DNA from: an uncultured Prevotellaceae bacterium
Lineage (GTDB): Bacteria > Bacteroidota > Bacteroidia > Bacteroidales > Bacteroidaceae
Assembly (NCBI GenBank): GCA_902763615.1
Contig: CACWSX010000023.1
Coordinates: 26,531 to 90,530 of the forward strand
DNA: 64,000 nucleotides
Direction of reading: 5' to 3'
Shown: piece by piece, positions 20,863 to 62,761 of the stretch
Layout: every line of letters begins with the position of its first letter
How positions within the stretch are numbered: position 1 is the stretch's first letter
The notes under the pieces: model-generated
Databases searched by the model: none
Told to the model about the DNA's origin: nothing
The model's input: the letters and a program-made list of their open reading frames with translations, nothing else
Position numbers and translations under genes: made by a program

Positions 20863-20893
20863 AATCCCCGCCAATATTCGGTGGGGATTTTTT
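20863..20893. terminator. Terminator between the rubredoxin and TrmH-type genes
   Basis: Stem AATCCCCGCC/GGTGGGGATT with a short loop followed by TTTTTT. It lies between convergent genes and can serve the plus strand. Confidence 0.85.
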
Positions 20894-21419
20894 ATAACAT
20901 TGTCTGAGCGAAATGCCAAATGATAATACCTGCTGTTACTGAGACGTTCATGGAATGTTTCGTTCCAAATTGTGGAATCTCCAAACAACCATCAGAAGCA
21001 TCGATTACTTCCTGATGCACACCTTTCACCTCATTGCCCAAGACAACAGCATATCTCTTTCCCTTTTCAGGCTTGAAGTCCTGAAGCATTGTAGAGCCAT
21101 GTGCCTGCTCTACTGAATAAACTTCAATACCAGCCTCTTTAAGCGCAATAAGTGCCTCTTGAGCAGAATTAAAAGCCTTCCATTCCACGCTATCTTCAGC
21201 TCCTAAGGCTGTCTTATGAATTTCAGTACTCGGAGGAGTCGAGGTAATACCACACAGATAGACAGCCTCGATACGGAAAGCATCACCTGTACGAAACACA
21301 CTGCCCACATTATGCATTGAGCGCACATCGTCGAGCACCACAATCAATGGCAATTTTTCTGCCTGTTTAAATTCATCTACAGACAGACGTTGCATTTCTA
21401 TCGTCCTTAACTTTTTCAT
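20892..21419 (-). CDS. TrmH/SpoU-family RNA 2'-O-methyltransferase
   Basis: From the ATG at 21419 the protein has 175 residues with the SPOUT-knot motifs. These are motif 1 LDDVRSMHNVGSVFRTGDAF, motif 2 VVLGNEVKGVHQEVID and motif 3 LEIPQFGTKHSMNVSVTAGI. It should methylate a ribose in tRNA or rRNA using SAM; the target cannot be read from sequence. The longer frame from 21533 begins beyond the promoter box at 21428-21435, so the shorter start is preferred. Confidence 0.9.
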   Translation of the reverse strand: MKKLRTIEMQRLSVDEFKQAEKLPLIVVLDDVRSMHNVGSVFRTGDAFRIEAVYLCGITSTPPSTEIHKTALGAEDSVEWKAFNSAQEALIALKEAGIEVYSVEQAHGSTMLQDFKPEKGKRYAVVLGNEVKGVHQEVIDASDGCLEIPQFGTKHSMNVSVTAGIIIWHFAQTML

Positions 21420-21427
21420 TGTGGTTG

Positions 21428-21458
21428 CAAAATTATATAAAAATGTATAAACTACAAA
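21428..21458 (-). promoter_or_regulatory. Promoter of the TrmH-type gene
   Basis: On the minus strand TTTG (21455-21458) and TAATTTTG (21428-21435) with a 19-bp spacer, 8 bp before the chosen ATG. Confidence 0.75.
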
Positions 21459-21485
21459 ATTAGGAAGGCATTTTGTCGTATTCGC

Positions 21486-21516
21486 TTTGTTTGAATCGAT
21501 TTTTTTTGTATCTTTG
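21486..21516 (+). promoter_or_regulatory. Promoter of the CE15 esterase gene
   Basis: TTTG at 21486-21489 and TATCTTTG at 21509-21516 with a 19-bp spacer. Confidence 0.8.
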
Positions 21517-21560
21517 GCACCAGAATCAGTCAACTATACATTATTTAATAATTAAGAAAG

Positions 21561-22778
21561 ATGAAAAAGCTACTATTTATGTCGTTTATGATGCTTTGTG
21601 GCACCAGTGTTGGATATGCCCAAAAGCAGAAAGGTAATGTACCTCTTGTTTATACTGTAGAGAACACAGGTAGTCAGTTTGCAGCACCAAAGATGCCTAC
21701 GATTGACAAACTGCCAGTCATTCGCGAATTGCCTGATCCCCTGAAATGGAGTAACGGAAAGGGTAAGGTTCAAAACTTTAAGGATTGGTCCAAGCGTCGC
21801 AGTGAAATCTCTAATCAGATTCAGCACTATGGTATAGGTACCAAACCAACTGTTCCTGAAGGTGCTGTGAAAGCAAAGATGTCTGGCGATACGTTGATTG
21901 TAGATGTTACTGTTAATGGCCAAACGCTCACACTCAGTTCCACCATCAGCTATCCAAAAGTTGGAAATCCACCTTATGCTTTGATGATTGGTACCAGTAT
22001 GCTGGCACTGCCAAGACAACTCTTTGCTGATCGTCCTATAGCCATTATGAACTATCGCGAGAAACAAGTTAATGATTATGGACAAATGGGAAGGCATCAT
22101 GAAAGAGGTGAACATAATTTTGACCGCCTTTACCCAGAACTGAAAGATAATGGTGCTTATAGTGAATGGGCCTGGGGTCTGAGTCGTTTAATTGATGGTT
22201 TGCAGCAACTTGGTCCTGAAGTCACGAAGATTGATACCAAGCACATTGGTGTATCTGGTTGCTCTTACGCTGGTAAGATGGCACTCTATTGTGGTGCTTT
22301 CGATGAGCGTATTGCTTTAACTATTGCTCAGGAGCCTGGTGGTGGTGGCGCTGCTGCCTGGCGTGCTTCTCGTGAGTTGACGAAAAGTGGAAAGAATGTA
22401 GAAGACCTCGATAAGACGGATTATCATTGGTTTATGGAAAGTCAGAAGGAGAATTTCCATGGTGATTCTGTCTATCGTCTGCCCTACGATCAGCATGAAC
22501 TTTGCACGATGGTTTGTCCTCGCGCCTTACTGCTGTTAGGTAATCCTGACTACGAATGGCTGGCTGATGGTTCAATGGTTGTCTCAGCAAAGGCTGCTAA
22601 CGAAGTCTGGAAATTCTTTGGAATCGATGATCGTTTCGGTTATTCGATTGTTGAAGGTCATGGACATTGCCAATTACCTGAAAGACAATTTCCAGAGGTG
22701 CAGGCTTTCATTGATAAGTTCCTGTTAGGCAAGGAAACTAATACAAAGGATATTCAAGTAGTGTCAGGCATCAAATAA
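21561..22778 (+). CDS. Secreted CE15-family glucuronoyl esterase-like protein
   Basis: The 405-residue protein has a signal peptide ending near VGYAQ. An alpha/beta-hydrolase domain carries the CE15 signatures: Ser235 in SGCSYAGKMA, Glu258 in AQEPGGGGAAAWR, the NPDYEWL loop, and His369 in GHGHCQLP. The Ser-Glu spacing of 23 residues fits the family. Such enzymes cut the ester between glucuronoxylan and lignin alcohols, so the host probably meets plant fibre. No other carbohydrate-active genes or SusCD pair lie beside it, so it is not in a visible polysaccharide utilisation locus. It has its own promoter and a terminator. Confidence 0.88.
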   Translation: MKKLLFMSFMMLCGTSVGYAQKQKGNVPLVYTVENTGSQFAAPKMPTIDKLPVIRELPDPLKWSNGKGKVQNFKDWSKRRSEISNQIQHYGIGTKPTVPEGAVKAKMSGDTLIVDVTVNGQTLTLSSTISYPKVGNPPYALMIGTSMLALPRQLFADRPIAIMNYREKQVNDYGQMGRHHERGEHNFDRLYPELKDNGAYSEWAWGLSRLIDGLQQLGPEVTKIDTKHIGVSGCSYAGKMALYCGAFDERIALTIAQEPGGGGAAAWRASRELTKSGKNVEDLDKTDYHWFMESQKENFHGDSVYRLPYDQHELCTMVCPRALLLLGNPDYEWLADGSMVVSAKAANEVWKFFGIDDRFGYSIVEGHGHCQLPERQFPEVQAFIDKFLLGKETNTKDIQVVSGIK

Positions 22779-22826
22779 GATGTGGATAACTATGTGAATA
22801 ACTTGTGTAAAACTATGGATTTTTCT

Positions 22827-22856
22827 ACCCGCTGTCTTGGCAGCGGGTATATTTTT
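22827..22856 (+). terminator. Terminator after the CE15 esterase gene
   Basis: Perfect 8-bp stem ACCCGCTG/CAGCGGGT with a 6-base loop followed by ATATTTTT. Confidence 0.85.
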
Positions 22857-22895
22857 AGGTTTATTCTTATATTATACGCACATTTTCCACTGATT

Positions 22896-22929
22896 TTTGC
22901 TGAAAAAAGATATAAACTTATTAATTTTG
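22896..22929 (+). promoter_or_regulatory. Probable promoter of nadA
   Basis: TTTG at 22896-22899 and TAATTTTG at 22922-22929 (22-bp spacer, slightly long). Transcription would run through the distal DnaA boxes into nadA, leaving a leader of about 200 nt. Confidence 0.55.
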
Positions 22930-23135
22930 CACCAAAATAGAGAAATGTGCATAACTATGCTTAGTTATTCATTATCAGAGAGAAAGAATCAACAATAGTT
23001 GTGAATAATGATAATTTCAGAGTGAATAAACAAATTGGCAAGTAAATAGATAAAAAGTTTCCATCTTATTCACGTCATATCATTCTATTCATTCTATTAT
23101 AAAAAAGAAAAGAAAAATAAAAAGATAATATAATA

Positions 23136-24125
23136 ATGTTGAAAAAGGAGTGGATCAAACAAGGTTTTATTGATGAACCTGTGGCAGAAGGTACAGACCT
23201 GAAGGCTGAAATCAGAGAGATGTGTAAGGAAAAGGATGCTATTATTCTTGCACACTATTATACCATCGGTGATATACAAGAGATAGCAGACTTTGTAGGC
23301 GACTCTTTGGCTTTGGCTCGCAAGGCTGCAGAGACAGATGCAAAGGTGATGGTGATGTGTGGTGTACATTTTATGGCTGAGACATGTAAGCTATTGTCGC
23401 CAGACAAGATTGTACTTTGTCCTGATCTGAATGCAGGTTGTTCTTTGGCTGATTCATGTAAGGCAGAAGATCTTGAGAAATATAAAAAAGAGCATCCTGG
23501 CTATCAGGTTATCTCTTATGTCAATACGACTGCTGCTGTGAAGGCATTGACAGATGTCGTTGTTACTAGTGGTAATGCCAAGAAGGTAGTTGATCAATTA
23601 CCAAAAGATGCCAAGCTTATTTTTGGTCCTGACTATAATCTTGGTAACTATATCAATGAGGTAACAGGTCGTCAGATGTTGCTTTGGAATGGTGGTTGTC
23701 ATGTGCATGAGCGATTCTCTGTTTCAAAGATTATAGAACTGAAGAAACAGTATCCTGATGCTATTGTGATGGCTCATCTGGAGTGTAAGGGTCCTGTTTT
23801 AGCATTAGCTGATGTAAAAGGTAGTACGGCTACAATGCTTAACTACGCCCAGCAGAGTGATCAGAATCAGTTTATTGTGGCCACAGAGGCTGGTATTCTG
23901 CATGAGATGCAGCGAACTTGTCCTAATAAGGAATTTATCCCTGTACCTCCAGAAATCAGCGAGAGCGGCTTAGAATGCAGCTGTAATGAATGTCAGTATA
24001 TGAAGATGAACTCTTTGCTGAAGATCTATAATGCCTTGAAATATGGCTGGCCTTCTGTAGAGGTTGATCCAAAGATAGCCAAGAAAGCTGTGAAACCTAT
24101 CAATAGGATGCTGGAATTAAGTTAG
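23136..24125 (+). CDS. nadA: Quinolinate synthase
   Basis: The 329-residue protein is a full-length NadA. It has the three expected 4Fe-4S ligands: Cys102 in NAGCSLADSC, Cys217 in AHLECKGP and Cys286 in NECQYMKMN. It also carries AHYYTIGDIQEIADFVGDS in three-layer-fold domain 1. It condenses iminoaspartate with dihydroxyacetone phosphate to quinolinate in NAD synthesis. nadB and nadC are not in the window. The acyltransferase gene starts 5 bp downstream and is probably cotranscribed. Confidence 0.95.
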   Translation: MLKKEWIKQGFIDEPVAEGTDLKAEIREMCKEKDAIILAHYYTIGDIQEIADFVGDSLALARKAAETDAKVMVMCGVHFMAETCKLLSPDKIVLCPDLNAGCSLADSCKAEDLEKYKKEHPGYQVISYVNTTAAVKALTDVVVTSGNAKKVVDQLPKDAKLIFGPDYNLGNYINEVTGRQMLLWNGGCHVHERFSVSKIIELKKQYPDAIVMAHLECKGPVLALADVKGSTATMLNYAQQSDQNQFIVATEAGILHEMQRTCPNKEFIPVPPEISESGLECSCNECQYMKMNSLLKIYNALKYGWPSVEVDPKIAKKAVKPINRMLELS

Positions 24126-60236: not shown

Positions 60237-60252
60237 TGTTTCACGTGGAACA
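60237..60252. other. parS: parS site 1 (chromosome partition)
   Basis: The 16-bp TGTTTCACGTGGAACA is the exact complement of the ParB/Spo0J site TGTTCCACGTGAAACA. It lies between apt and uvrC. Confidence 0.85.
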
Positions 60253-60819: not shown

Positions 60820-60835
60820 TGTTTCACGTGGAACA
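60820..60835. other. parS: parS site 2 (chromosome partition)
   Basis: A second perfect TGTTTCACGTGGAACA, 583 bp from the first and between mnmG and apt. Confidence 0.85.
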
Positions 60836-60856: not shown

Positions 60857-62761
60857 CTACCTTCCCATCAGCACTAGCATCACGTTGATGTCGCTGGGTG
60901 ACACACCTGGAATACGGCTGGCCTGTGCCAGCGTCTCGGGTTGTATCTTCATCAGTTTCTGACGGCATTCAGTAGAGAGCCCTTGCAATTCTTCGTAGTT
61001 GAAATGCCCTTTGATTTTGATATTTTCCAAACGATGCATTTTCTCAGCTACGACTCTTTCTCTTTCGATGTATCCTTTATATTTCATCCTTATCTCAGCA
61101 GCCTCAGCAATTTCTTCCTGACGATTATTTGGTCGATTTATAACCTCTTTTAATTGAGGGATAATATCGGAAAGGTTGGCTAAATTGAGTTGTGGGCGGT
61201 TGACCAAGTCTACCAACTTGCAACCAAACTGGAGTGGGGTAGTGCCAAGTGCTTCCAATGCTGAATTTATCAACTTCGGTTTAATCGCAAAGTCCTGACA
61301 GAAAGTTTCGATTTCTTCGATGGCTTGTTTCTTCTCCATCCACCAGTCATATCGGTCTCTTTTGACTAATCCTAATTCATATGCCTTTTCTGTCAGACGG
61401 GCATCTGCATCATCCTGTCTTAAAAGGATGCGATACTCTGCTCGCGAAGTAAACATGCGATATGGTTCATCGACGCCCTTAGTCACTAAATCATCGATTA
61501 GTACGCCAATATAGGCCTCATCGCGATGTAGAATAAAAGGTTCGAAAGTGGATTCGCTTGTGCAACCTGCTTTTAGTGCAGCATTGATTCCTGCCAACGT
61601 ACCTTGACCACCAGCCTCCTCATAGCCCGTTGTGCCGTTCACCTGACCAGCCATAAAGAGATTCTCAATTATCTTCGATTCCAACGAATGGCTCAATTGT
61701 GTAGGATCGAAGAAATCATATTCTATCGCATAGCCTGGACGATACACTTTTATATCTCTAAAGGCTGGCATCTTTTTCAGTGCCTCTATCTGGACATCCA
61801 TTGGTAACGAAGAAGAGAAGCCATTGAGATACATTTCATTTGTATCTTCACCCTCTGGTTCCAAGAACAAAGGATGCTTGTCTCGCTCAGGGAAAGTGAC
61901 GAGCTTCGTTTCTATTGATGGACAATATCGTGGACCAATCGATTGTATCTGTCCATTATAAAGCGGGGAGTCGGTTAATCCACTTCGTAGTATCTCATGT
62001 ACTTCTGTATTAGTATTTACTGTCCAACAAGGCAATTGCTTCAGCGCGCCATTTTTGTTCATATAGCTGAACTGATAGGGACGATTCTCGCCTGGCTGGA
62101 TCTCCAAATCCTCGAAATGCACGGAACGCTTATCGATACGCACTGGTGTACCAGTCTTCATGCGAGCTGAAACAATCCCGTGACGAGTGATACTTTCTGT
62201 GAAATGGGGTACAGCAGGTTCGGCGATACGTCCACCAGGAACCATTTTCCGCCCGATGTGCATCAGACCATTCAGAAAGGTGCCTGCTGTTACAATGACG
62301 CAGTTCGCATAAATCTCCGCACCCCAGATGGTACGCACGCCGATGGCACGGACGTGAGTTTTGGACTCCACTAAAAGTTCATCTGCTTGGTCTTGCCAGA
62401 TATCCAAATTCTCCGTTTCATCGAGATGTTTGCGCCACTCCCAAATAAACTTTCCTCTGTCACATTGGGCACGAGGGCTCCATACGGCTGGGCCTTTGCC
62501 TACATTCAGCATACGGAATTGTATTGAAGTGGCATCAGTGACCAAACCCATTTGACCTCCCAGCGCATCGATTTCTCGCACAATCTGACCTTTGGCGATA
62601 CCACCGATAGCCGGATTACACGACATCTGCGCAATCTTGTTCATATCCATCGTCACCAGACAGGTCTTGGCACCCATATTAGCACTAGCGCAGGCTGCCT
62701 CACAACCTGCATGACCACCTCCGATAACGAGCACATCATAGTTAAAATGCATATCCTTCAT
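60857..62761 (-). CDS. mnmG: tRNA uridine-5-carboxymethylaminomethyl modification enzyme MnmG
   Basis: The 634-residue FAD protein has the dinucleotide-binding motif VIGGGHAGCE (12-21), the MnmG signatures GGIAKGQIVREIDALGG and GPRYCPSIETK, and the C-terminal helical domain with GLSTECRQKLMKIQPETLAQASRIPG. With MnmE it modifies U34 of several tRNAs. The start could be the ATG at 62761 or 62752. mnmG (gidA) lies near the replication origin in many bacteria, which agrees with the parS sites beside it. Confidence 0.96.
   Translation of the reverse strand: MKDMHFNYDVLVIGGGHAGCEAACASANMGAKTCLVTMDMNKIAQMSCNPAIGGIAKGQIVREIDALGGQMGLVTDATSIQFRMLNVGKGPAVWSPRAQCDRGKFIWEWRKHLDETENLDIWQDQADELLVESKTHVRAIGVRTIWGAEIYANCVIVTAGTFLNGLMHIGRKMVPGGRIAEPAVPHFTESITRHGIVSARMKTGTPVRIDKRSVHFEDLEIQPGENRPYQFSYMNKNGALKQLPCWTVNTNTEVHEILRSGLTDSPLYNGQIQSIGPRYCPSIETKLVTFPERDKHPLFLEPEGEDTNEMYLNGFSSSLPMDVQIEALKKMPAFRDIKVYRPGYAIEYDFFDPTQLSHSLESKIIENLFMAGQVNGTTGYEEAGGQGTLAGINAALKAGCTSESTFEPFILHRDEAYIGVLIDDLVTKGVDEPYRMFTSRAEYRILLRQDDADARLTEKAYELGLVKRDRYDWWMEKKQAIEEIETFCQDFAIKPKLINSALEALGTTPLQFGCKLVDLVNRPQLNLANLSDIIPQLKEVINRPNNRQEEIAEAAEIRMKYKGYIERERVVAEKMHRLENIKIKGHFNYEELQGLSTECRQKLMKIQPETLAQASRIPGVSPSDINVMLVLMGR

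Follow-up and report, generated by a model that had tools for sequence, protein, structure and literature searches.

A predicted chromosomal replication origin between a CE15 esterase gene and nadA in a Prevotella-type genome

The gap upstream of nadA and its DnaA boxes

The stretch of DNA analysed here (64 kb; the window) lies on contig C23 of an assembly (G000) of 3,464,354 bases in 117 contigs, 87% complete. A family scan that covered 11 window proteins confirmed the two neighbours of the gap under study as a CE15-type esterase (PF22244) and NadA (PF02445), and the gene order was DUF4254, GT9, SpoU/TrmH (minus strand), CE15, the predicted oriC, and nadA. The features considered below were the following.

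20892..21533, minus strand: SpoU/TrmH-type methylase gene
21561..22778, plus strand: CE15-type glucuronoyl esterase gene (GCE_fung), the left-hand neighbour, which varies among relatives
22779..23135, no strand assigned: predicted oriC, the complete intergenic gap from the CE15 stop to the nadA start
22781..22812, minus strand: left DnaA-box array TTATCCACA, TTATTCACA, TTTTACACA, spacing 12 and 11 bp; arrays spaced by about 12 bp also occur in relatives
22905..22931, plus strand: 27-bp core AAAAGATATAAACTTATTAATTTTGCA, which also accompanies box arrays that are not beside nadA
22946..22954, minus strand: DnaA box at -190 to nadA, position-conserved; TTATGCACA here, TTATCCACA in most nadA loci read
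23000..23008, minus strand: DnaA box TTATTCACA at -136 to nadA, present in some relatives
23021..23029, minus strand: one-mismatch DnaA box TTATTCACT, from the box scan
23066..23074, plus strand: box TTATTCACG of a putative unwinding module, two mismatches from TTATCCACA, from the box scan and the anchored alignment
23078..23137, no strand assigned: predicted DNA unwinding element, less stable than any other 60-mer in the 64 kb and reaching to the nadA start
23079..23099, plus strand: seven NTN triplets ATC ATT CTA TTC ATT CTA TTA (3'-NAN-5' trios on the other strand), successive and separated from the box by the 4-bp spacer TCAT
23136..24125, plus strand: nadA, quinolinate synthase, the commonest right-hand neighbour of the predicted origin in the genus sample
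60237..60252, no strand assigned: parS-like site TGTTTCACGTGGAACA, 37 kb from the core, one mismatch from TGTTTCACGTGAAACA
60820..60835, no strand assigned: second, identical parS-like site, one mismatch from TGTTTCACGTGAAACA

The cluster of DnaA boxes in the 357-bp gap is real. Four exact TGTGNATAA boxes were found (22781, 22793, 22946 and 23000), one of them exactly TGTGGATAA, as the sequence-only reading had reported, and all four are on the minus strand; that reading had counted three further boxes with one mismatch, where our recount gave four (22804, 22872, 23021 and 23066). Four of the five exact TTATNCACA sites in the window fall in the gap, and the densest other 357-bp stretch, in a scan by 50-bp steps, held one exact and four one-mismatch boxes, which bears out the claim that no other gap in the window is so dense in them. 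Such clusters in intergenic regions are a mark of bacterial oriC. Just past the CE15 stop, and within the predicted origin, is a G+C-rich inverted repeat (22826-22849) that resembles a terminator and that was shared, among the alignment rows listed, with locus L004 only.

The gap is 73% A+T, and boxes might accumulate in such DNA by chance, but none of 5000 dinucleotide shuffles of the gap contained three or more exact boxes (just two contained two), the distances from boxes to nadA are kept over many genomes, and a search of 119 same-genus genomes for the box pair returned 63 occurrences versus 8 for the reversed pattern. A chance cluster was rejected on the shuffles, and we regard it as having a negligible probability. 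Single boxes are another matter, as they are near background in the whole assembly, where 127 exact sites (100 of the places listed) compare with 93 for the reversed control. By contrast, only one tandem pair of the form TGTGNATAAN{3,33}TGTGNATAA was present in the 3.46-Mb assembly, at the gap, and none in the reversed control; the 27-bp core was also found once, in keeping with one origin per chromosome.

A conserved layout and a 27-bp core

Comparison with related genomes, a check that the sequence-only reading had proposed, revealed that the positions of the boxes and the overall layout are conserved. In the nadA loci that were read, exact boxes recur at about -191 and at about -344/-356/-368, with fewer at about -137, mostly on the same strand, and loci in which nadA is of about 60-65% identity had no such exact boxes. 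Twenty-six of the 63 box pairs, from 23 genomes, lie 313-402 bp upstream of nadA, 25 of them in the same orientation; the other 37 lie elsewhere. An alignment of 32 gaps chosen by nadA has, among the rows listed and from left to right, a box array with a spacing of about 12 bp, the motif TTTTCCAC, the core AAAAGATATAAACTTATTAnnTTTGCA and a box; the block at the right is made up of weaker boxes, then ATCAT, then an A-rich tract.

Allowing one mismatch, the core was found at 74 places in 70 of the 119 same-genus genomes, while reversed controls gave none, and it was single-copy in 67 of the 70 core-bearing genomes, the others (G007, G024 and G113) having two or three. The 49 genomes without the core at this threshold include G057, which is so counted because its contig ends cut the core. 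The deposited chromosome of G057 (both ends of C1; L033 and L034) is in fact cut inside the 27 bp, and its submitters may have rotated it to this point; the sign of the skew is independent of rotation. Several other genomes had unusual arrangements. The 3.1-Mb G024 has three nadA genes, each with a core (C13, C26 and C30), which could reflect a mixed bin or several origin-like loci. The second core of G007, with one mismatch (C2:224659), does not share a contig with the exact copy (C3:803407) and could be either the origin of a second replicon or a chance match. In G051 a box array and a two-mismatch core (C53:794-814; L106) are separated from nadA by about 2.4 kb that include another open frame, which looks like an insertion.

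Alignment A1, model R1 and a set of 80 core loci were all picked by the exact core pattern, so the invariance of the core in them is by construction. In an independent set selected by nadA, the core (up to four mismatches, within 700 bp upstream) was present in 37 of 47 loci, or in 35 of 44 genomes by our own count. The 80 exact-core loci, from named records, were listed from at least 118 stretches; nadA follows at 100-400 bp in 71 of them (in L260, from Prevotella koreensis KCOM 3155, the distance is 231 bp) and at 490 bp in one, and some of the remaining eight are cut by the end of the stretch. Among the 71 nadA-side loci listed, exact boxes within about 260 bp of the core numbered two or more in 55, one in 12 and none in four. 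One of the other eight, L292 from a Flavobacterium MAG, had no box near the core and looks like a chance match. In 29 of the 80 core loci listed, the two left-hand ORFs include a TrmH-like gene, and the CE15 gene therefore seems to have been added locally, between TrmH and the predicted origin.

In a family sample of 151 genomes, 15 of them of the same genus, the mismatch-free core was found in 11 same-genus genomes and in none from other genera; at two mismatches it was also found in other genera, in 44 of the 151 in all. An order-wide search with a sequence model matched 15 of 198 genomes, our own included, the best of the others at E 1.3e-8. No tandem exact boxes were seen in the nine other loci from this search, so the layout as demonstrated is that of the genus. 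A model of the right-hand 185 bp gave a second match in our own genome no better than E 2.4e-3; the top score of the window under this model is by construction, as the window is among the model's own sequences.

The association with nadA could have another cause. A match to nadA begins 224-400 bp downstream on the same strand at 60 of the 74 core places (58 genomes), with 14 arranged otherwise, and in 58 of the 92 genomes (of the 119 of the same genus) in which nadA was found the core, at one mismatch, is directly upstream of it, as would be expected if the boxes made up a DnaA-controlled regulatory region of nadA, or a site for DnaA titration or reactivation, the true origin being elsewhere. 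The end of the core also resembles the consensus of the -7 promoter element, TAnnTTTG; by eye, no convincing -33 element was seen at the usual distance from it. Against nadA regulation, other members (G075, G061, Prevotella multiformis, P. dentasini and Prevotella MAG L261) have a DUF3108 gene, and not nadA, downstream of the same core and array, with an nrdB gene on the core's other side in G061, P. multiformis and L261; these families were assigned by Pfam in G075 and G061 and in the other genomes by BLAST to those two. Judged by these arrangements, the predicted origin element is separable from nadA.

At the right end of the gap, the sequence-only reading had described a 60-bp A/T tract. 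The tract is not pure (87% A+T, 23076-23135), but the 60-mer at 23078 has the lowest stability in the window by nearest-neighbour sum, and an A/T-rich unwinding element is predicted there on that basis. When the 80 listed loci and the window were examined for the adjoining triplets, 66 of the 81 sequences offered an anchor, a box with ATC or ATT behind it, and the other 15 did not. The middle letter was T in 82, 79 and 85% of the 66 at triplets 3, 4 and 5, which were not used for anchoring, and in 48% at triplet 6. Five or more T-centred triplets in a row were found in 41 of the 66; 500 shuffles of the letters behind the anchor, uncorrected for kinship, averaged 4.2 and reached at most 10; since the anchored sequences are related, the trio-like phase in these loci is only suggestive. 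Inspection by eye found no trio runs beside the left array or between the core and the box, and the right-end run was the only fit seen.

dnaA, GC skew and parS-like sites

An oriC adjacent to dnaA is common in other phyla, and the gap does not belong to that class. In our own assembly dnaA is on contig C10 and the gap on C23, consistent with the earlier statement that no dnaA lies nearby. A denser cluster beside dnaA, which by the sequence-only reading would have refuted the candidate at the gap, was looked for in the 3.5 kb around the gene, where we found no exact and four scattered one-mismatch boxes; among the matches listed, one exact box lies about 4 kb beyond that region (C10:42331). 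With contigs taken as circles, the distance from core to dnaA is about 0.70 Mb in G057, 0.84 in G014, 0.79 in G025, 0.62 in G113, 1.16 in G039 and 0.71 in G045, and in G069 the two are on different contigs. The surprise that the sequence-only reading attached to an origin away from dnaA was overstated, as oriC is commonly far from dnaA in Bacteroidetes according to the available text of PMC4755523. The convention differs in PMC5771137, whose figures draw the oriC of Porphyromonas gingivalis at dnaA.

Skew within the window gave no information on the site, at +0.007 to its left and +0.005 to its right. With our own assembly in 117 contigs, skew was instead fitted in relatives, from samples 16-20 kb long, some of which contained masked letters, on a 10-kb grid and with the terminus assumed to lie opposite the origin. 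The proposal that the skew minimum should fall near the gap was upheld in four one-contig relatives that share the setting of nadA, in which the turn from minus to plus was at or near the site: the fitted origin, relative to the nadA start, was -7 to +3 kb in G057, -13 to +7 kb in G025, -22 to -12 kb in G014, and -64 to -24 kb in G113, the last at 73% of the possible score. Wrong-sign samples were encountered at -17, +64 and +123 kb in G113 and at -10, +101 and +801 kb in G014.

Where the core is away from nadA, the skew turn agrees well with the core in one genome, only approximately in two others, and not in a fourth. The turn in G039 is -14 to +16 kb from the core, nadA is 776 kb off, and a turn at nadA fits badly (0.056 vs 0.188). 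In G069 six samples bracketed the turn at -198 to -18 kb from the core. The best fit in G045 is +147 to +297 kb from the core, with scores of 0.220 for the best position, 0.193 for the core and -0.064 for nadA, and in G075 the best fit is 665 kb from the core with half of the score, a result at best neutral and otherwise against the core, even though a local change of sign is seen there. G069 and another genome, G065, consist of two contigs each and resemble two-chromosome Prevotella. The core, at up to one mismatch, was found only on C1 (C1:16724 in G069, C1:141320 in G065); nadA is on C2 in both, as is dnaA in G069, and the second replicon of such genomes may have an origin of another kind.

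The sequence-only reading had also pointed to a pair of parS sites at 60.2-60.8 kb and to mnmG as marks of an origin domain. The pair was located at 60237 and 60820, and mnmG (GIDA) was confirmed at 60857-62761. At up to three mismatches, 0.35 parS-like sites would be expected in the window by chance, and two or more turned up in 5 of 100 shuffles. Matches to the window's 16-mer with up to one mismatch were found in five of seven relatives, and among the matches listed all were 36-67 kb from the core (67 kb in G025, 54 in G045, 46-47 in G069, 36 in G113 and 64 in G039), while none was found in G057 or G014. In G045, G069 and G039 nadA is elsewhere, and the parS-like sites are still near the core.

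The skew misfits of G075 and G045 favour nadA regulation, while the turn at or near the site in the four one-contig relatives, the turn at the core and not at nadA in G039, and parS-like sites close to the core in three genomes whose nadA is elsewhere speak against it. Plain regulation of nadA was rejected because the element is separable from the gene and because of the skew in G039, and we consider this explanation, with its variants of titration and reactivation, improbable. DnaA boxes occur in plasmid origins too, and the gap could in principle have served an integrated plasmid, or a mobile replicon of another sort, and not the main chromosome; however, in the scan of 11 proteins household genes flank it (DUF4254, GT9, SpoU/TrmH and nadA), the TrmH-like gene recurs in the core loci, the core is single in nearly all genomes that have it, and a whole-chromosome skew turn is nearby, so that a mobile origin appears extremely unlikely.

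A predicted oriC and its relation to known origins

Taken together, the box cluster, its conservation, the skew in relatives and a tandem pair that is unique in its own genome support the candidate origin between the CE15 gene and nadA, and we predict, with a probability of roughly 0.93, that the gap at 22779..23135 is the oriC of this Prevotella-type genome. DnaA binding, a melting site and bidirectional initiation at the gap are what we infer from this. DnaA, encoded by a distant gene, would bind the left array and the boxes on the nadA side of the conserved core. From the box at 23066-23074, at the right end, it might nucleate onto the trio-like triplets and open the very A/T-rich tract as far as the nadA start codon, and helicase would be loaded there for two forks. 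The 27-bp core is possibly a promoter or a site for another factor. More tentatively, and at somewhat less than even odds in our judgment, AAAAGATATAAACTTATTAnnTTTGCA could be an oriC element of an undescribed kind, conserved with its box distances over much of the genus and staying with the origin while the neighbours (nadA; DUF3108 and nrdB; TrmH and CE15) change, which as a promoter or the site of a further initiation factor would act with DnaA.

For much of a genus that is dominant in rumen and gut, the prediction offers an oriC that is precise and can be tested, and a 23-letter signature could be used to find the origin in draft genomes, to give assemblies their orientation, and as an anchor for growth rates estimated from coverage. 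The predicted origin is also unlinked from its initiator gene and has changing neighbours, and its conserved core calls for a function. Judged by titles and the openings of abstracts, and with the core's letters not queried, we did not find an origin adjoining nadA or the 27-bp core in the literature, and the nadA-linked layout and the core are thus the parts for which we found no counterpart.

DnaA-dependent origins of the Escherichia coli and Bacillus subtilis type have a cluster of TTATNCACA 9-mers, an A/T-rich unwinding region, a skew turn, and parS in the same domain, and the gap resembles them in all of these. It differs in that dnaA does not adjoin it, in having nadA on the right, and in its conserved 27-bp core, which is neither a DnaA box nor a trio run.

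The putative unwinding module resembles the basal unwinding system (BUS), with the relative orientation of box and trios taken as background. In the available text of PMC8287927, BUS is defined by a DnaA-box within 2 mismatches, a spacer of up to 16 bp and at least three 3'-NAN-5' trios, and the two-mismatch box TTATTCACG, the 4-bp TCAT and the seven NTN triplets, followed by the A/T tract, agree with that definition; the module is here a sequence-based candidate, and the NTN pattern is weak by itself in T-rich DNA.

The closest described case is chromosome I of Prevotella intermedia OMA14, for which an oriC of about 0.48 kb was predicted at a GC-skew transition far from dnaA (PMC4755523). OMA14 is another species, the comparison was one of described features, and the available text of PMC4755523 has no occurrence of nadA, but its oriC and the gap have in common multiple DnaA boxes, a GC-skew transition and a great distance from dnaA. 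As that source already reports Bacteroidetes origins far from dnaA, the predicted nadA-side origin belongs to a known kind.
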